Source: Lachnospiraceae bacterium
GTDB lineage: Bacteria > Bacillota > Clostridia > Lachnospirales > Lachnospiraceae
DNA length: 36,307 nucleotides
Assembly (NCBI GenBank): GCA_017558205.1
Contig: JAFYWD010000095.1
Location: 1 to 36,307 of the forward strand
Reading direction: 5' to 3'
Shown: positions 14,028 to 22,053 of the stretch, one piece after another
How positions within the stretch are numbered: the first letter of the stretch is position 1
Layout: the number at the start of each line of letters is the position of its first letter
Notes under the pieces: generated by a model
What the model was told of the DNA's origin: nothing
Seen by the model: the letters and a program-made list of their open reading frames with translations, nothing else
Database searches by the model: none
Program-made: the position numbers and the translations under genes

Positions 14028-15969
14028 TATTCCAAGAGGAACATTGGGGATGAAAGAAAACCTTAAAACTATTTTAGAGATGGTACGAAATAATGTCTCT
14101 CCATCTCAAAAATTAAATATAGAGGGAAGCGAAAGTCAGATAGATTTAGGAACGGCGTGTGTTCGTTTAAGACCGATGAAATTACTGTTGAAAACTCAGG
14201 CGGGATGGACACTTTCTGATGAGGCAAGAAAATGGCTGGATACAGAAGATGAATTGTATTTGGCAGCATTTTTATGTGCTCGCATAAAATTTTTGGCAGA
14301 AATATTGTATTATTTGGATGAACCTAAGACAGCAGCAGAACTACAAAATATAGCAAATAACGAATATGCTTTGACTTGGAAAACAACAAGTGATATTAAT
14401 GCACGACTTGTGTGGTTGCGACAATTAGGGCTCGTAGAATTTCAGGATTTTTCTCTTTTGTATTTCTTAACAGATTTGGGGAAGGAATTTGTAAAGAATA
14501 TTGAAGTTGTTGAGCCGATAAAACAGGATTTTTCATTTGACGAGACATTAAACGAAGGAAAGGTGGAAGTTTCAGAATGGGCAATTGATTTTTGCTCTAA
14601 TTTACCTAGTGATAGAAAATCTACTATAGGATATATTATCGGAGATATGAAGCAATTTCAAACAACGATTGCAGAATTTATTCAATTGATTAGTGGAGGA
14701 AAATCTTCTGATCAGGTAATGGAATATGCTGAGGAGAATTATGCTATTGCACCTTCCTCTTTGAAATCTTTCTTTTCCACCCTAACTAATATGGGAATCG
14801 TTGAAAGAAAGACATCTACAATCTATGATGTGACAGATACAGCAAGATTATGGAGTGAGAAAGAACTGATAATTGACTTGCTTTGTATAATGCATAGACA
14901 GTTTGGTTTTATGTTTGAAATGTTAGGTGTCTTAGAAGAGAGAAGCATGTCCAATAAAGAATTGGCGGCAATAGCAAAAGTTTCATATGGTTTTGAAAGA
15001 GAGAATGTAGATGAAATACGTAGAAGAGTGGCTATATTTCAGACGGCAAAACTAATAAGGAACGATTCTATAGATAAATACACTATTACAAGTAGGGGGA
15101 GAAAACTTTTAGGGCTTATCAAGGTAGAAAAACCGGTTTTAGCAGAAAACAATGAGAAATGTGCAGACGAATTCGAGAATGCTCAGGATTTACAGTTCTT
15201 TACGGAGTTACGTTTGGCGGCAAAAGATTCTAGTAATTTTGAAAGACTTGAAAAACAAGTTAAGGTAGCATTTGAAAAACTTGGGTTTGAAGCGCAATGG
15301 CTTGGCGGTGCCGGAAAAACAGATGTGTTAGTGCGAGCGGCGGGTAATTCTTTGACAACGTATACAGTTACCGTTGATGCAAAGTCGACGATGAGTGGAA
15401 ATGTGACGGATGGTCTTGTAGATTTTGATACATTGGAGGAACATAGGCGCAAACATAAGGCTGATTTTTCAGCAGTTGTAGGTGGCAATTTCCAAAATGA
15501 GAGATTGATCAAGAGAGCGATTGAACATAATGTGGTTCTAATCGATATAGACACATTAGAAAATTTAATTAGAAATCATTTGGAAGTACCAATTCAAGTA
15601 ACGTCATACAAGAAGTTATTTGAAACGCCGGGTATAGCTGATGTTAAATGTCTAGAAGAGGAACGCGAAAAAATTACAAGATACGGAAATCTTCTTCATG
15701 CGGTGATGGATTGTTTGATTGCTGAAAGAGATGATGAAGTAACAGGTGGCATATTACAAGAAAGAGATATTTATCGTTCTTTGAGAATGAATGATAGTTT
15801 TTCTTCTGTTCCTAATATTGATGAAATATCTGCTATGCTTCAGTTTCTTGCTTCGCCTTTGATTGGTTGCGTAGAAAAGTCGAAGGATGGATATTCAGCA
15901 GTTGGAACATTAGATGATGCAGCGCAGAAATTTGATTTCTATTCAAGGATGTGTAAAAGTCAGAAATAG
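13960..15969 (+). CDS. Winged-helix PD-(D/E)XK restriction-like endonuclease, no methylase partner
   Basis: A 669-residue protein. Residues 1-420 look like repeated winged-helix modules (for example LVWLRQLGLVEFQ then YFLTDLGKEFVK, and YTITSRGRKLL). A nuclease core follows at about 430-550: KQVKVAFEKLGFEAQWLGGAGKTDVLV with D455, then TVTVDAKST with D473 and K475, the PD-(D/E)XK signature also seen in Mrr and FokI-like enzymes. GGNFQNERLIKRAIEHNVVLIDIDTLENL resembles the last core element of Mrr-type nucleases. The start at 13960 has AAGGAGGG 5 bases upstream. No DNA methyltransferase is nearby, so it may act on modified DNA or as a stand-alone defence protein. Confidence 0.75.
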   Translation: MRVNFSDYPKSLSWEMKSFSMPNIPRGTLGMKENLKTILEMVRNNVSPSQKLNIEGSESQIDLGTACVRLRPMKLLLKTQAGWTLSDEARKWLDTEDELYLAAFLCARIKFLAEILYYLDEPKTAAELQNIANNEYALTWKTTSDINARLVWLRQLGLVEFQDFSLLYFLTDLGKEFVKNIEVVEPIKQDFSFDETLNEGKVEVSEWAIDFCSNLPSDRKSTIGYIIGDMKQFQTTIAEFIQLISGGKSSDQVMEYAEENYAIAPSSLKSFFSTLTNMGIVERKTSTIYDVTDTARLWSEKELIIDLLCIMHRQFGFMFEMLGVLEERSMSNKELAAIAKVSYGFERENVDEIRRRVAIFQTAKLIRNDSIDKYTITSRGRKLLGLIKVEKPVLAENNEKCADEFENAQDLQFFTELRLAAKDSSNFERLEKQVKVAFEKLGFEAQWLGGAGKTDVLVRAAGNSLTTYTVTVDAKSTMSGNVTDGLVDFDTLEEHRRKHKADFSAVVGGNFQNERLIKRAIEHNVVLIDIDTLENLIRNHLEVPIQVTSYKKLFETPGIADVKCLEEEREKITRYGNLLHAVMDCLIAERDDEVTGGILQERDIYRSLRMNDSFSSVPNIDEISAMLQFLASPLIGCVEKSKDGYSAVGTLDDAAQKFDFYSRMCKSQK

Positions 15970-16048
15970 GTTAAGGGTAATGCAATAAATATATGAGGAA
16001 TTGCTGGAGCTGAAGTTTCAAAAGATAAAATTGAAATAGAGTTATGAA

Positions 16049-16105
16049 AGGTGTGTCAAAAAGTGGCGTACTTTTTCAAAAAGTGCGTCAAGAAGTGACA
16101 CACCT
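16049..16105. repeat. Inverted repeat enclosing three direct repeats
   Basis: The outer arms AGGTGTGTCA (16049-16058) and TGACACACCT (16096-16105) are perfect. Inside, TCAAAAAGTG occurs at 16056 and 16076, and TCAAGAAGTG at 16088. ACTTTTT can also pair with AAAAAGT. A protein-binding or origin function is inferred. Confidence 0.6.
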
Positions 16106-16143
16106 ATAAGAATATCAGGGGTTTTAGGGGATTTTGCCCCTAA

Positions 16144-16184
16144 CTAGATGCATTTTGTGATGGATATACAAAATGCGTATCTAG
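16144..16184. repeat. Long stem-loop
   Basis: CTAGAT then GCATTTTGT pairs with ACAAAATGC, bulge GT, ATCTAG, around a 9-base loop. Fifteen base pairs with a 2-base bulge and no T-tail. This could be an oriT-type stem-loop. Confidence 0.55.
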
Positions 16185-16259
16185 CGAAGGACACCCGGAG
16201 AACTTTTTCGGGCATCGGAAAAGGTGCTATTTTTATTAATTTTTTGCTAGAAATGTAGG

Positions 16260-16378
16260 TATGTCGGAATTTCCAACATAGAAAATAAAAAGTATGTCAA
16301 TTTTTCCAACATAAAAAATGGGAAGTATGTCGGTGATTCCAACATAAAAATACGATTCCGACATGGATTTCCAACATA
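16260..16378. repeat. Four phased palindromic repeats (iteron-like)
   Basis: Units of 21 bp begin at 16260, 16293, 16326 and 16358, so the period is 33, 33 and 32 bp, about three helical turns. Each ends in TTCCAACATA. Units 1-3 begin TATGTC, giving half-sites ATGTYGGAA facing TTCCAACAT. In unit 4 the left half-site is reversed (ATTCCGACAT). The phasing suggests cooperative binding of a dimeric protein, as at iteron origins. Confidence 0.7.
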
Positions 16379-16507
16379 GTAGCAGAGAAAATTTTTTCTC
16401 ATTGGAATCATTGCTTTTTCCAATCCACAGTTGTATCATTAAGACAAGAAGTCATAGATGACTTATCGGACGAAAAGATGCAGAGCGATTATGGAAGGAG
16501 GGAAGCT

Positions 16508-16702
16508 TTGAACAAGGAATTTGAACGCTGCTGCACATTCCTGGCCGAGATGATGGAGAAATACGGAGCATTGGTTTTGCGAGACATCGCCGTAGAGATT
16601 CAGTATGAACTGGAAACTTGGTGTGATGATGCAGAGGGAAAAAGACTTCGGTATGAGGCTTATGCAAGAAGATTTATGAAGCGGTTTGAGAAGGCGGCAT
16701 AA
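16508..16702 (+). CDS. Small charged helical protein of the island (unknown)
   Basis: A 64-residue helical protein (LNKEFERCCTFLAEMMEKYG and on, ending RRFMKRFEKAA). I do not recognise a family. A TTG start at 16508 is preferred because AAGGAGGG sits 6-7 bases upstream. An in-frame ATG 30 bases earlier lacks such a site. It lies directly after the phased palindromes, so a role in replication, partition or transfer control is possible but unproven. Confidence 0.55.
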   Translation: MNKEFERCCTFLAEMMEKYGALVLRDIAVEIQYELETWCDDAEGKRLRYEAYARRFMKRFEKAA

Positions 16703-16859
16703 GGATTACCGGCATCCTGCGAGAGTGGGATGTATACATATGATAGAGCGTTCAAAATAGTAGGATTGAAAGTGTTATTTCACATATTGAGTATAATAAT
16801 AGATTTGTAGTAAGCTTCGGTAAATTTTTTGCTGAGGTTTATTTTTTTGCAACAAGTTG

Positions 16860-16888
16860 TTGACCGTGTGAATGATTGGATATATAAT
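16860..16888 (+). promoter_or_regulatory. Strong sigma-A promoter for the first mini-HTH gene
   Basis: TTGACC (16860-16865), a 17-base spacer, TATAAT (16883-16888). Right after the -10 is the 17-bp odd palindrome TTTATGCAATGCATAAA, which would block transcription when bound. Confidence 0.75.
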
Positions 16889-16891
16889 AAA

Positions 16892-16908
16892 TTTATGCAA
16901 TGCATAAA
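16892..16908. promoter_or_regulatory. Palindromic operator for the mini-HTH regulator
   Basis: TTTATGCAATGCATAAA has 8-bp arms around one central base. It lies between the -10 box and the ribosome site. The core GCAATGC recurs twice at the second mini-HTH gene (20703-20748). Confidence 0.6.
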
Positions 16909-16919
16909 GAGGTGAACTT

Positions 16920-17147
16920 ATGGAAGCAAGAGACGAATTAAGAAAATTAAGAGAAAGTACCGGTATGAACCGGAAAGAATTTTGTGAGTATTTTGAAATC
17001 CCATATATGACGGAAACAGATTGGGAATTAGGTAATAGAAGGGTTCCACAGTATCTTTTACGATTGATGGCATATAAGATTGAAATAGAGAAGTTGGCTA
17101 ATAAGAAAAAAGAGAGTGCTCAGGAAGATGAAGCGACTAAAGAATAA
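16920..17147 (+). CDS. Mini helix-turn-helix regulator (XRE-like), copy 1
   Basis: A 75-residue DNA-binding protein. The HTH covers about residues 10-45 (RESTGMNRKEFCEYFEIPYMTETDWELGNRRVP). It is followed by a helical segment and a charged tail. It is clearly paralogous to the protein at 20757-21011 (same RELRES, RKEF, DWE.G.RR.P.Y..RL positions). GAGGTG precedes the ATG. With its promoter-proximal palindrome it probably represses itself, and perhaps the toxin gene 52 bases downstream. Confidence 0.75.
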   Translation: MEARDELRKLRESTGMNRKEFCEYFEIPYMTETDWELGNRRVPQYLLRLMAYKIEIEKLANKKKESAQEDEATKE

Positions 17148-17163
17148 TGTATAGGTAATTGTG

Positions 17164-17176
17164 CCACAGCCTGTGG
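17164..17176. promoter_or_regulatory. Short palindrome ahead of the toxin gene
   Basis: CCACAG-C-CTGTGG, a perfect 13-bp odd palindrome in the 52-base gap between the mini-HTH gene and the PemK/MazF-like gene. It may be an operator. Confidence 0.4.
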
Positions 17177-17199
17177 TATAAATTGGAGGTATTGACAAT

Positions 17200-17733
17200 A
17201 TGACACCAGAAGAAAAAGTAATAATGACGAAAGCTCAGCGTATCAGTAGATGGAATGCGCAAAAGTTGTATTATTCTACAGGTAAACAGTATCAGAGAAA
17301 ATGGACTGTGAAGAGAGGAGAAGTTTATTTTGTGGATTTAGGGGAGAATGTCGGTAGTGAGGAAAATAAACTTCGTCCGGTTGTTGTATTACAATCGGAT
17401 GCATATAATTTCAAGTCACCGGTATTTACATGCGCTATTATTTCATCTAGTGCTTTGACGATTCCGGATATTCAAGTCTCGATTACTGGAACGTACCCAT
17501 ATAAAGATGAGAATGGTGTGAATAAATTTTTAGTCGGAAGCGTGGATTTAGGGCAGATAAAGACCGTAGGTAAGGAAAGAATAGTAAATAGTAAGGTTTG
17601 TATGCTTAAGCAGGAGATACAAGAAATAGATAGAAAACTCTTGAATGCGCTTGGTTTATCTAGTATAATTAAGTCAAAGGAAAACACCATTAAATCATTG
17701 CAAGGTAAAATAGAATATATGAAAAAGCAATAG
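17200..17733 (+). CDS. PemK/MazF-family toxin-like endoribonuclease
   Basis: A 177-residue protein. The MazF fold is at about residues 40-140: WTVKRGEVYFVDLGENVGSE, then KLRPVVVLQSDAYN and VFTCAIIS, and LVGSVDLGQIKTVGKERI. Members are mRNA-cleaving toxins. It is longer than classic MazF (about 110 residues), with a 38-residue basic N-terminal extension and a coiled C-terminus. No usual MazE antitoxin is adjacent. The upstream mini-HTH protein and the downstream RNA are the only neighbours that could neutralise it. TGGAGGT is 9 bases before the ATG. Confidence 0.8.
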   Translation: MTPEEKVIMTKAQRISRWNAQKLYYSTGKQYQRKWTVKRGEVYFVDLGENVGSEENKLRPVVVLQSDAYNFKSPVFTCAIISSSALTIPDIQVSITGTYPYKDENGVNKFLVGSVDLGQIKTVGKERIVNSKVCMLKQEIQEIDRKLLNALGLSSIIKSKENTIKSLQGKIEYMKKQ

Positions 17734-17743
17734 ATATTTTTCG

Positions 17744-17772
17744 TTGACTTTTCATATAATATAATGTAGAAT
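17744..17772 (+). promoter_or_regulatory. Promoter of the tandem-hairpin small RNA
   Basis: TTGACT (17744-17749), a 17-base spacer and TAGAAT (17767-17772). The predicted start is near 17779. It lies 10 bases after the toxin stop codon, and the transcript has no ORF before the terminator. Confidence 0.65.
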
Positions 17773-17778
17773 CTTATC

Positions 17779-17879
17779 TACAGATGTGGTCAATCTGGCG
17801 ATTGATCGGTAAAATTGATTCAGTTATGGTGGATTTGGCGATCCATCGGTAGCTCCCACTTCGGTGGGAGTTTCTTTTT
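17779..17879 (+). ncRNA. Small RNA of two 40-nt hairpin units plus terminator
   Basis: Hairpin 1: GGTCAATC-TGGC-GATTGATC (17788-17807). Hairpin 2: GGTGGATT-TGGC-GATCCATC (17828-17847). They are exactly 40 bases apart, share the loop TGGC and the 3' CGGTA, and differ in the stem by changes that keep pairing. Then CTCCCAC-TTCG-GTGGGAG and a T-run end the RNA. The region is not coding. The family is unknown; it resembles the repeat-plus-terminator plan of type III antitoxin RNAs, but no ToxN-like protein is recognised nearby. Confidence 0.65.
17853..17879 (+). terminator. Strong intrinsic terminator with a TTCG tetraloop
   Basis: CTCCCAC (17853-17859), loop TTCG, GTGGGAG (17864-17870), then TTTCTTTTT. 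It ends the tandem-hairpin RNA. Confidence 0.85.
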
Positions 17880-17881
17880 GT

Positions 17882-17966
17882 GATGGCCGTAGAGAGGCAT
17901 GGGTAATGCCCGAATCCAAATATCTCATTAGCGGGTAGGCAGTCAGAGTGATGGCTGTCTATTTTT
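17882..17966 (+). ncRNA. Second structured segment with its own terminator
   Basis: GGCAT-GGGTA-ATGCC (17896-17910) forms a hairpin, and CCCG (17909-17912) could pair with CGGG (17932-17935). AGGCAGTC (17937-17944) pairs with GGCTGTCT (17953-17960) using two wobbles, followed by ATTTTTATG. No separate promoter was found, so it may be a read-through product or a leader. Confidence 0.4.
17937..17966 (+). terminator. Intrinsic terminator of the second structured segment
   Basis: An 8-bp stem with two G-U pairs, an 8-base loop, then an A-T5 tail. It lies directly before the promoter of the next gene. Confidence 0.55.
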
Positions 17967-17969
17967 ATG

Positions 17970-17998
17970 TTGAAATACGGTTGGAACAGATATATAAT
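17970..17998 (+). promoter_or_regulatory. Promoter for the 104-aa protein and the DUF6933-like gene
   Basis: TTGAAA (17970-17975), a 17-base spacer and TATAAT (17993-17998). It is about 57 bases before the chosen start codon. Confidence 0.7.
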
Positions 17999-18054
17999 TT
18001 TGTTGGGACAATAAAACGTATGTAAGTTACGACATGGATTGGAGGATGTTTACC

Positions 18055-18369
18055 ATGGAAGTTTCAAAAAGCGATTGGAAATTATTTAGGACACGCATTG
18101 GTGATTGGCAAGAAGCGTATATGGAACGCTTGGTTAAGGGATATATGGATTTATTAGAAGGTAAAGAGAATGCTTCAGATAAATTCTGGAAGCTGGAAGA
18201 AAGAATAAAAAAGGATAAGAAACATCCGGGAGTAATGCTTGAATTAAGCAAAGGGAATATGATTTTCGATATTGTGGCATTGATTAATAGTGGAGTAGTT
18301 ACAGTTGACGATTTAGCAGATTTCAGTGATGAATTAAAGGAAAGTGTAGCATATTTTACGAATAGATAA
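18055..18369 (+). CDS. Small helical protein of the island (unknown)
   Basis: A 104-residue, mainly helical, charged protein (MEVSKSDWKLFRTRIGDWQE and on). It contains KDKKHPGVMLELSKGNMIFDIVALI and ends with DDLADFSDELKESVAYF. The start at 18055 is chosen because TGGAGG lies 8 bases before it; an in-frame ATG 21 bases upstream lacks that spacing. I do not know its function. It is followed after 13 bases by the DUF6933-like gene on the same transcript. Small proteins of this look recur in clostridial elements, from memory only. Confidence 0.6.
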   Translation: MEVSKSDWKLFRTRIGDWQEAYMERLVKGYMDLLEGKENASDKFWKLEERIKKDKKHPGVMLELSKGNMIFDIVALINSGVVTVDDLADFSDELKESVAYFTNR

Positions 18370-18382
18370 GGAGTTGATTTGT

Positions 18383-18901
18383 ATGGTGATTTACTGTTCT
18401 AAGGCATTGCAAACGGCTTTAAAACTAACAAAATCTGATATGGTTAAGCCTGAAGATTTACAACAAAATGACTTTTATTCGTGGCACGGGCATATTGCAA
18501 AAGTGGATGGAAGAAATGTAATTGTACTTATGAACGATAAAACTATGTATTGTATGTTATTTCGGAACAAATTGCCGAGAACAGCAAGTAAGTTTTCAGA
18601 ACTTGTAAAAGAAGCAATTCCATACACTTTTGAGGTTGGGAATGTTAATTTAGAAGAAATTGAAAATTATATGTCTGGGTTGGGGGATATAGTTTTTTCA
18701 GAAAAATCAGACAGGCAGATGACAGGGAATATTAGTCGTATGATTTTGGATATGTCTTATCAATGGAATTTTGCTTGGAATGATAATGAAACAATTCAGG
18801 CATATGAAGCGTGGGAGCAAAATCGTAGATTGAGGAAAATAGCTAAGGATTATATAGTTCCGTTTGAAGAAATGCTAAAAGCATTGTGTGGAATTGAATG
18901 A
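18383..18901 (+). CDS. DUF6933-like protein
   Basis: A 172-residue protein starting MVIYCSKALQTALKL. The N-terminal pattern (CSKALQTALKL, DFYSWHGHIAKVDGRNVIVLMNDKTMYCMLF) matches what I recall of the DUF6933 family, whose function is unknown. The C-terminal part is helical (YEAWEQNRRLRKIAKDYIVPF). The ATG at 18383 has AAGGAG 9 bases upstream. It is cotranscribed with the 104-aa protein and ends 18 bases before the recombinase gene. Confidence 0.65.
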   Translation: MVIYCSKALQTALKLTKSDMVKPEDLQQNDFYSWHGHIAKVDGRNVIVLMNDKTMYCMLFRNKLPRTASKFSELVKEAIPYTFEVGNVNLEEIENYMSGLGDIVFSEKSDRQMTGNISRMILDMSYQWNFAWNDNETIQAYEAWEQNRRLRKIAKDYIVPFEEMLKALCGIE

Positions 18902-18919: not shown

Positions 18920-20668
18920 ATGAAAAAACAACTCAAATGCTACATTTACACCCGTGTATCCACCTCCGTGCAGGTAGATGGTTATAGTTTAGATGCGCAA
19001 AAGGATAAATTGCATAAATATGCTGATTACCAGGATATGATTATCGCCGGTGAATACTCCGACGAGGGCAAATCCGGTAAAAGTGTGGAAGGTAGACCAC
19101 AATTCCAACAAATGCTTCAGGACATCGAAAACGGCAAGGACAATATCGATTTTGTGCTTGTATTCAAATTATCCCGTTTTGGTCGTAACGCAGCAGATGT
19201 ATTATCATCCCTTCAGAGAATGCAGGATTTTGGGGTTAATCTTATCTGTGTGGAAGATGGTATCGATAGTTCTAAGGATGCTGGTAAACTTATGATTTCT
19301 GTTTTATCTGCGGTGGCTGAAATTGAGCGTGAGAATATATTGGTACAGACTATGGAAGGACGCAGACAGAAAGCCAGAGAAGGTAAATGGAACGGTGGTT
19401 TTGCACCTTACGGTTATCAGCTAATCAACGGTGAACTGCACATAGCCGAGGATGAAGCGGAGATTATTAGAATTATTTACGATAAGTTTGCCAATACCAC
19501 TATGGGAATTGCAGCCATTGCTACATTCCTAAACAACAGCGGATACAAGAAAAAGCTTCGGCAGAACAATACCATAGAAGGTTTCTCCACATCCTTTGTA
19601 AAAGGTGTTTTGGATAATCCGGTGTACTGTGGCAAGCTTGCTTTTGGCAGAAGAAAGAATGAGAAAATACCGGGTACAAGGAATGAGTACCACATTGTGA
19701 AGCAGGACAAGTATATGCTTAACGATGGTATCCATGAGGCAATTGTATCGGAAGAACTGTGGAATCAGGTGCATAAAAAGAGGCAGGAAACCGGTGTTGC
19801 CAATATCAAAACTCATAGCTTGGATCACGAGCATATTCTGTCTGGTATTATTAAATGCCCTATCTGCGGAAGTGGTATGTATGGAAATGTAAATCGTAAA
19901 AAGCATCCCGACGGCGGACACTACAAAGATTATTTTTACTATGCCTGCAAGCACAGAACTTTTGTAAATGGTCATAAGTGTAATTATCGTAAGCAGTGGA
20001 GCGAGGATAAAATCAATGCAGCAGTGGAAGAAGTAATTCGTAAGCTGGTGAATAATCCAAAGTTTAAAACGGAGATTCAGAAGCACATCGGTCAAAGCAT
20101 TGATACACAGGAGCTGGACAGAGAGCATACAGGCTTACAGGAGCGATTAAAGCAGGTAACCGGAGCTAAGAACAAGCTGGCAAATCAGATGGATAACTTA
20201 TCTGTATCAGACAAGCATTATGACAAGAAGTATGAGGATATGCAGGTGCGTCTGGACAAGTTCTATGACGAGATAGAAGAAATTGAAACTCTGATTGAAG
20301 AAGTGGAAACCAGACTGTATAATATTAGGCAGGAGAAAATATCCGCAAATAATGTATATCAGTTCTTATTATTCTTTGATAAGCTGTATGACAGGTTTAC
20401 GGATATTGAGAAGAAAACCTTTATGAAGAGCTTCCTTGCGGATGTGAATATTTACGAGGAAGAGCAGGCAGACGGAAGGATACTTCGTAGTCTGAAATTC
20501 CGATTCCCTGTGTTTTTCAATGGGAAAGAGATATACGAATTGGATTGGGACAACGAAAGTACCGTCGAGACGGTTTGCCTTTTGAATCGTATGAGCAACC
20601 GAAAACCGGATTCTTATGTGAATTTATCTGTTAATATGGATGAGTATAGAGAGATTACGGGCAAGTAG
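18920..20668 (+). CDS. Large serine recombinase (site-specific integrase)
   Basis: A 582-residue serine integrase that probably mediates insertion of the island. The catalytic domain is residues 1-150, with the nucleophilic Ser in YTRVSTSVQ, SRFGRN and the conserved EIERENI helix. The recombinase domain follows (about 160-290, NGGFAPYGYQ and VYCGKLAFGRR). The zinc ribbon uses CPICGSGMYG and a second Cys pair (YACKHRTFVNGHKC). A long coiled coil spans about 390-480. It is complete. Large serine recombinases act on short, unrelated att sites sharing a 2-bp crossover, so the repeats at rlmD are candidate targets. Confidence 0.95.
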   Translation: MKKQLKCYIYTRVSTSVQVDGYSLDAQKDKLHKYADYQDMIIAGEYSDEGKSGKSVEGRPQFQQMLQDIENGKDNIDFVLVFKLSRFGRNAADVLSSLQRMQDFGVNLICVEDGIDSSKDAGKLMISVLSAVAEIERENILVQTMEGRRQKAREGKWNGGFAPYGYQLINGELHIAEDEAEIIRIIYDKFANTTMGIAAIATFLNNSGYKKKLRQNNTIEGFSTSFVKGVLDNPVYCGKLAFGRRKNEKIPGTRNEYHIVKQDKYMLNDGIHEAIVSEELWNQVHKKRQETGVANIKTHSLDHEHILSGIIKCPICGSGMYGNVNRKKHPDGGHYKDYFYYACKHRTFVNGHKCNYRKQWSEDKINAAVEEVIRKLVNNPKFKTEIQKHIGQSIDTQELDREHTGLQERLKQVTGAKNKLANQMDNLSVSDKHYDKKYEDMQVRLDKFYDEIEEIETLIEEVETRLYNIRQEKISANNVYQFLLFFDKLYDRFTDIEKKTFMKSFLADVNIYEEEQADGRILRSLKFRFPVFFNGKEIYELDWDNESTVETVCLLNRMSNRKPDSYVNLSVNMDEYREITGK

Positions 20669-21721: not shown

Positions 21722-22053
21722 TTGTAAGCTTATGGAGAAAAATTTGTATCTTAGCACTTAAAATGCAAATGCAAATATGTACGGATATGTTAATTCGGAA
21801 TTTACGCCTATGGAGAGTAGAAGAACTTGTGAGTAGATAGATACTTGTATCATCAAAAGCATACTCAGTGAAGTAGGAATGAAACATAAGAGTGTTTATA
21901 ACTTTTTATGGAAAAGATTAATGAGATTAAGGAAAATGCGGTTAATGTTGTAGCGTAAGGAGAAAGGGTTGGAATATCCGGAAAGTATGCATCAAGTAAA
22001 GAAACAAAAAATTGAAATGGATGGTGTATGAAGACAGATAAAAGAACATACCT

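Follow-up and report, generated by a model that had tools for sequence, protein, structure and literature searches.

A covarying two-hairpin RNA behind a PemK/MazF-like gene of a Lachnospiraceae bacterium: a candidate type III-like toxin-antitoxin module

The window analysed here is a stretch of 36,307 nucleotides from a Lachnospiraceae bacterium (contig JAFYWD010000095.1 of assembly GCA_017558205.1, an incomplete assembly at 89% completeness in 295 contigs). On its forward strand lies a gene for a PemK/MazF-like RNase of 177 amino acids (pemK, 17200..17733), a proposed toxin with an N-terminal extension and a C-terminal tail. Behind it stands RNA1 (17779..17879, +), a proposed antitoxin small RNA composed of two hairpin units and a terminator, which starts 45 nt past the pemK stop codon. 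Upstream of pemK, and outside the minimal module, is an open reading frame (ORF) for a helix-turn-helix (HTH)-like protein of 75 aa (16920..17147, +).

The PemK protein matched PF02452 (E=1.5e-18, residues 38-149), the sole Pfam match at E up to 0.01. It belongs to a long subfamily, whose members have the N-terminal extension and usually also a C-terminal tail. A profile built from five long-subfamily proteins aligned with PDB MazF chains across roughly positions 32-155 of 192. This profile found 27 PDB sequences at E up to 0.01, of MazF/PemK/Kid type wherever they were named and with MazF chains, EndoA included, as the best matches; no ToxN- or CptN-named entry was among the 27. AlphaFold modelled the toxin poorly (pLDDT 52.2, 8 rows). 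Judged from its sequence, pemK is conserved as a protein, with dN of 0.21-0.40 against three relatives (dS could not be estimated). Where the close relatives are named, they come mostly from Lachnospiraceae assemblies.

RNA1 is a real small RNA. A first-pass annotation of the window had described two hairpin units 40 nt apart with a common loop and flank, and the sequence confirms this. Unit 1 (17781..17811, +; stem 17788-17795/17800-17807, loop TGGC at 17796-17799, flank CGGTA) and unit 2 (17821..17851, +; stem 17828-17835/17840-17847, loop TGGC at 17836-17839, flank CGGTA) are 31 nt each (CAG..CGGTA) and spaced exactly 40 nt. As annotated, the 8-bp stems differ while pairing is kept: 3 of the 8 pairs are changed, C-G to G-C and A-U to G-C by substitution of both bases and C-G to U-G by substitution of a single base, and every pair still forms. 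The RNA at 17775-17879 has a predicted folding energy of -35.3 kcal/mol (z = -3.39), and none of 200 shuffles was equally stable. Among 12 distinct units of this kind, taken from the window and its relatives and referred to as A-type, 96.9% of 96 stem cells are paired, compared with at most 47.9% in slid controls. Both-sided changes occur at 6 of the 8 pairs, and the covariation score was reached by 0 of 500 shuffles. Together the fold and the covariation bear out the earlier argument that the internal covariation reflects a selected structure.

The RNA is bounded, as had also been claimed, by a promoter-like site in front and a strong terminator behind. The promoter-like site, TTGACT-17-TAGAAT (17744..17772, +), lies just behind the pemK stop codon, and the intrinsic terminator (17851..17879, +) consists of a stem at 17851-17872 followed by a T tail. 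Between 17690 and 17990 we counted 3 promoter-like sites (1.0 expected) and 2 terminators (0.1 expected). All 9 terminator pairs are kept in each of the 8 aligned sequences (alignment A1), two of them with both-sided change. No Rfam family matched RNA1 at curated thresholds and matches below threshold were at chance level, which agrees with the statement that the RNA belongs to no recognised class. One such candidate, isrB, was rejected (20.6 bits and E=1 against a gathering threshold of 35; it aligns best at the terminator). Coding potential was also considered. By eye, a 22-codon frame runs through RNA1 in the window, the loci L145 and L177 have 8 codons and then a stop, and the 25-codon frame through the RNA of locus L191 is unrelated to that of the window. 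Five of 8 A-type units can be read as [A/G]TG followed by 7 codons and a stop (window 2, L145 1, L177 2, L191 0). It seems improbable that these 8-codon frames are coding, since the stop is missing in three units, no ribosome-binding site is evident and the frames are absent from the other RNA types described below.

The layout of the 5′ end recurs between loci. In the window, UACA (17779..17782, +) stands 6 nt past the -10 box and is the probable 5′ end of RNA1. Among 16 loci, 14 (the window and 13 of 15 others) have a 17-nt spacer in their top-scoring sigma-70-like site, and L145 has one of 18 nt; the scan picked a different site at L146, where TTGACA-17-TAACCT can be seen by eye to overlap the stop codon. 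In 12 of the 16 loci UACA stands 5-6 nt past the -10 box, its background density in these regions being 0.0067 per position. At the exceptions it lies 23 nt (L191), 12 nt (L180) or 21 nt (L197) past the box, and at L146 the scan found none behind it. Because transcription should start 5-6 nt past the -10 box, the RNA would begin with (U)ACA. RNA1 thus probably starts at or beside (U)ACA, a motif cut by some Gram-positive MazF enzymes: U^ACAU is given as the cleavage site of B. subtilis and S. aureus MazF in the part of the source available to us (PMC5408214).

Seven loci on genome contigs encode the window PemK protein or part of it. In six of these (L137-L142, protein 96-98% identical) the RNA lies directly behind the gene; the seventh, L143, is a decayed pemK fragment (residues 142-177) and is without the RNA. 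The DNA blocks common to the window and the six close loci all span pemK and the RNA, with edges that vary by locus. Stem conservation holds at these homologous loci. Most substitutions leave the pair intact (C-G to U-G in L137 and L140, G-U to G-C in L142, U-G to U-A in L139) and one, in L140, disrupts a pair. At L145, where the protein is 73% identical, the stretch shared with the window by blastn is 17174-17849 alone, that is, pemK and the two units. A covariance-model search, which the first-pass annotation had suggested, was run with a model (R1) built from eight sequences. R1 matched 4 of 397 genomes of the family at E<=0.1, namely the window's own, apparently that of L139, that of L145 and that of a new locus, L177 (89.3 bits), whose RNA lies behind a gene for a PemK protein 65% identical; the RNAs of L145 and L177 are both behind pemK. 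Within the genus, R1 matched 2 of 7 genomes, the window's own and one with a poor match (20.5 bits) that adjoins no pemK ORF. The pair of pemK and RNA is also present on a prophage contig (L191), where PemK is 52-53% identical and both units keep the flanks CAGTT.TG and GTCGGCA while the loop TTCCAT replaces TGGC. Both L177 and L191 retain pemK and the RNA in differing surroundings. By eye, the pemK and RNA of L191 and of L195/L224 lie between apparent terminase and portal genes on two prophage contigs. A unit pattern of 14 fixed bases matched at least 120 stretches in viral contigs, and a second two-unit element was found in none of the loci checked. DNA similarity in plasmids and phages was at chance level alone (1 record at E 0.7 and 8 records at E 0.8).

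For wider searches we used a profile (A4) built from five long PemK proteins. It matched 7 of 299 genomes of the phylum at E<=1e-25: the window's own, L185, L186, L187, a partial match at L188 (G928, E=7e-32) that we excluded from counts, and L189 and L190, where no hairpin pair lies behind the gene. Among 381 genomes of the class it matched 5 at E<=1e-35, the window's own and L194-L197, with an RNA in all four of the latter. Of the near relatives of three carriers, 1 of 13, 1 of 22, 1 of 22 and 1 of 5 genomes matched, always the carrier itself. Since near relatives are mostly without the module, these genome searches indicate that it is rare and scattered across the phylum.

Behind long PemK genes of other families and classes of the phylum, and on a B. 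velezensis plasmid, we found RNAs unrelated in sequence to RNA1 that have the same design and place. The B-type RNAs (L185, L186, L194, L146 and L170) have three to four hairpins with the loop ACGAGUG or a variant of it, there being one variant loop, and their stems differ throughout; at L196, where the gene is truncated, there are two B-type hairpins. In 21 B-type units, 69 of 168 cells carry both-sided changes against 18.5 in shuffles; the units were chosen for at least 6 inner pairs, and their percentage paired is therefore biased upward. A third type (L187, L195, L149, L200 and L201) mostly has GGA in the loop and ACAAAG ahead, with GGA alone common to the loops, and ACAAAG recurs before an inner hairpin in several B- and third-type RNAs. 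L180, on the 8.1-kb B. velezensis plasmid, has units with CGAWGW loops and one stem with a mismatch, L197 has CCTAAT-AAAG-ATTAGG and CCTAGC-AGAG-GCTAGG with equal flanks, and L179, on an F. nucleatum plasmid, has one clear hairpin. Unit number, which the first-pass annotation had suggested might vary between elements, indeed ranges from 2 to 4 hairpins across the wider locus set. Hairpins of one locus resemble each other in loop and flanks, and these change from locus to locus (TGGC; TTCCAT at L191; ACGAGTG; CGAWGW at L180), a pattern that would be expected if a protein-binding determinant tracks its toxin. The linkage of pemK and RNA holds down to 28-35% toxin identity and across changes of RNA sequence, host family and element type. 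In viral contigs the B-type RNA pattern had 2 matches, neither with an adjoining long pemK and one inside a coding repeat, and yielded no further module. L174 (apparently the genome of L139), L184, L193, L223 and L224 repeat other loci and were left uncounted.

To measure specificity for the long subfamily, we looked in the 330 nt past each stop codon for two hairpins that resemble each other in loop and flanks and differ in their stems, and scored the best such pair. Several loci had already been read when this score was designed. Its G-U limit was later raised from 2 to 4, for all sets including controls, after low scores at L145, L187 and L201 (3.37, 1.77 and 3.35 in the stricter version). 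All 24 long-subfamily downstream regions, 7 of them window-type, score 4.50-7.58; the lowest is that of L179 (4.50), which has one clear hairpin and whose class is undecided. The stretch behind pemK in the window scores 4.76, above all 40 of its shuffles (maximum 3.17). In contrast, all 29 downstream regions of other PemK/MazF genes score 3.25 or less. These controls comprise 26 proteins aligned mainly over the MazF core together with L181, L198 and L199, which have an N-terminal extension. The regions upstream of the 29 control genes reach at most 3.55, 110 tiles of the window at most 3.81, and the regions upstream of 14 long-subfamily genes a best pair of 2.44. L149 (5.69) and L170 (5.23) were moved from the controls to the long subfamily on the basis of alignment span, length and hairpins, while L147, L164 and L168 were dropped from the controls for want of a recognised ORF, and L182 and L183 were folded and stand outside the scored set. 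In a forward test based on protein coverage, L200 and L201 had the RNA and the core-only L202 and L203 did not. The RNA is thus co-inherited with the long subfamily and absent behind the other MazF genes examined. The border of the subfamily is not sharp, since L181, L198 and L199 have no hairpin pair despite their N-terminal extension (for L199, which has two tandem pemK genes, behind the first), while L197 has the pair and its protein is without the C-terminal tail.

The gene at 18920-20668, downstream of the cassette, encodes resolvase, recombinase and zinc-ribbon domains, which suggests that pemK and the RNA probably belong to an integrative element. Several other features of the region were observed. 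RNA1 is followed by a second structured RNA (17887-17970, +) with its own terminator-like site, in which an inner hairpin GGCATGGGTAATGCC is set within an outer stem alongside a constant AATCCAAATA strand; it matches nothing in Rfam. By eye, its outer stem varies with pairing kept (GAGA/UCUC, GGAA/UUCC, AGAA/UUCU), and its motif lies upstream of an Abi_2/AbiF-like gene in a viral contig (L227), downstream of one in L005 and near an AbiE-like gene in L003. In L225 and L226 the motif is without such a gene and occupies, again by eye, the same terminase/portal-like region as the pemK and RNA of L191 and L195/L224. This second RNA may be an orphan AbiF-type antitoxin RNA. The long pemK of L186 has an abiF RNA-like motif immediately upstream (2107-2143, -; RF03085, 33.9 bits where the cut-off is 37). 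A DUF6933 protein (18374-18901, +) matches the PADLOC candidate defence family PDC-S63 (E 1.7e-13), and the element may carry a small defence island. Further downstream is a RAGATH-18 RNA (RF03064, 68.8 bits; 21807-21879, +), a scaffold of IS607 TnpB guide RNAs. It follows a RhuM-like gene that is divided between two ORFs, and no TnpB was found among the proteins scanned; 64% of RAGATH-18 RNAs adjoin an IS607 TnpB, according to the portion of PMC11061315 consulted. Finally, a stretch of about 58 nt in the region 16047-16105 occurs once in the window and in several copies in L138 and L140.

The first-pass annotation was right about the structured RNA and overlooked the neighbouring PemK/MazF-like gene, which points to the likely function. 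Because RNA1 lies directly behind a PemK/MazF-type toxin gene, it is most likely an RNA antidote. A multi-site RNA with locus-specific loops, in the fixed company of one RNase subfamily, with its own promoter-like site and no common protein partner, is what would be expected of an RNA antitoxin that binds the RNase; no protein gene is common to the surroundings of 19 loci (ORFs of at least 50 aa, by eye), and no MazE- or PemI-like partner was recognised. Thus we consider it likely, from comparative sequence evidence, that the locus is a two-part toxin-antitoxin module of a type III-like kind, made of a PemK/MazF-like RNase toxin and a downstream antitoxin RNA. The PemK/MazF-like protein would cut RNA, and the RNA transcribed from the promoter behind the pemK stop codon would bind and block it. 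Each hairpin, with its loop and single-stranded flanks, would serve as a docking site, so that a single transcript could neutralise two or more toxin molecules. Since the RNA would start at or near (U)ACA, this end may lie in the RNA groove of the enzyme as a substrate or product mimic; hypothetically, the 5′ ACA would act as the product mimic. The module might contribute to element maintenance or to phage defence.

Type III systems (ToxIN, CptIN and TenpIN), found on plasmids, chromosomes and a prophage, are described in the part of PMC5086642 available to us as pairing an RNase of MazF/Kid-like fold with a tandem-repeat antitoxin RNA and a terminator; the RNA lies ahead of the toxin gene under a common promoter, with the terminator between. 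The antitoxin repeats are 34-36 nt in the ToxIN family and longer in CptI, as far as the accessible text of PMC12373285 states. Like these, RNA1 is a tandem-repeat RNA, with two 40-nt units in the window and 2-4 hairpins elsewhere. By sequence the toxin belongs to the MazF family, and its fold and activity may match those of type III toxins. In contrast, the RNA here has another sequence, is downstream and has its own promoter-like site, the window toxin matches MazF-type rather than ToxN or CptN entries in Pfam and the PDB, and the stems vary between units while loops and flanks are alike. Type III RNA units are pseudoknotted in solved structures; the hairpins here are predicted from sequence.

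The AbiF system of C. difficile (RCd22) is comparable in another respect. Its antitoxin RNA comprises a terminator and two hairpin motifs, one of 33 nt and the other of 35 nt, and binds and neutralises the AbiF toxin, according to the accessible part of the report (PMC12373285). The two hairpin motifs and terminator resemble RNA1; unlike in the window, the AbiF toxin is a HEPN-type Abi_2 protein whose antitoxin RNA is encoded upstream. The abiF RNA model (RF03085), searched at E up to 10, matched nothing within 15900-18400, and no Abi_2 was found among 20 window proteins scanned. The Rfam pemK RNA (RF02913) is a single 61-nt RNA of cis-regulatory type, unlike the multi-hairpin RNA1. It exceeded its cut-off in 4 of 22 genomes or records, most of which carry long PemK genes. 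At L208 and L209 it precedes short pemK genes, and at L210 and L211 no adjoining pemK ORF was seen. Neither RNA1 nor any further long-PemK locus scanned gave a match, and none of the 15 matches listed falls at such a locus. A 2017 paper in NAR reportedly described the pemK and abiF motifs. MazF and PemK are textbook members of protein-protein toxin-antitoxin pairs. The present toxin shares the family PF02452 with MazEF/PemIK type II systems and differs in its N- and C-terminal parts beyond the MazF core and in having an RNA instead of a recognised protein partner. In the titles and abstract beginnings searched, mostly of non-subscription literature, we found no description of a MazF/PemK with a downstream RNA antitoxin, and priority is not established.

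Other explanations of the locus were weighed. It is unlikely that RNA1 is a structured 3′ UTR that protects or matures the pemK mRNA 3′ end or tunes read-through without binding the toxin. The position of the RNA directly behind pemK, with a terminator at its end, would fit; against this, a promoter-like site lies between, or across, the stop codon and the RNA, the hairpins are repeated with common loops, the downstream genes differ between loci and no such pair occurs behind the 29 other PemK/MazF genes scored. Type I-like control, in which the RNA would pair with the pemK mRNA and block its translation or stability, is more doubtful still even though a small RNA does adjoin a toxin gene. The RNA is on the same strand as pemK and downstream of it, and its complementarity to the mRNA is within shuffle range at three loci: -34.1 kcal/mol against a shuffled mean of -35.4 in the window, -32.2 against -36.5 at L177 and -46.7 against -42.3 at L191 (sd 3.9, best shuffle -55.1). 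Moreover, constant loops and flanks with covarying stems are the reverse of an antisense pairing site.

Protein sponges are typically multi-hairpin RNAs with a common loop, and RNA1 could on that ground sponge another protein, CsrA-like or other, with its link to pemK a matter of hitch-hiking. We give this slightly less credence than type I-like control, as the link outlasts divergence of the toxin to 28-35% identity and change of RNA sequence, host family and element type, and no such RNA lies behind the 29 other PemK/MazF genes scored. Least probable of all is an ordinary type II module in which the 75-aa HTH protein would serve as antitoxin and the RNA would play no part. Its ORF lies 53 nt upstream of pemK in the window and 53-56 nt upstream in L138, L139 and L142, and falls within the block common to all six close loci; its product weakly resembles the MqsA-type antitoxin model TIGR03830 (16.4 bits where the cut-off is 61.8; E=0.006), and L170 has a different HTH gene upstream of pemK, so that at window-type loci and at L170 a protein antitoxin may yet take part. 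However, the 75-aa HTH ORF is absent at L145, L177 and L191, where pemK and the RNA persist.

We therefore favour a PemK/MazF-like toxin held in check by the RNA behind it, and this module has a fair chance of deserving its own class. In its fullest form the idea is tentative and goes further than we would assert. It would set apart MazF/PemK proteins with N-terminal and usually C-terminal extensions, sparse yet widespread in the phylum, that are controlled by a downstream hairpin array with its own promoter, a 5′ (U)ACA product mimic and a loop that coevolves with the toxin, and would place a share of the "orphan PemK/MazF toxins" under RNA control. If the RNA antitoxin reading is true, one RNase fold took RNA antitoxins more than once, with opposite gene order. 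It would also explain PemK genes annotated as partnerless on plasmids, prophages and integrative elements, and would provide toxin-RNA pairs whose specificity is possibly legible from the loop.
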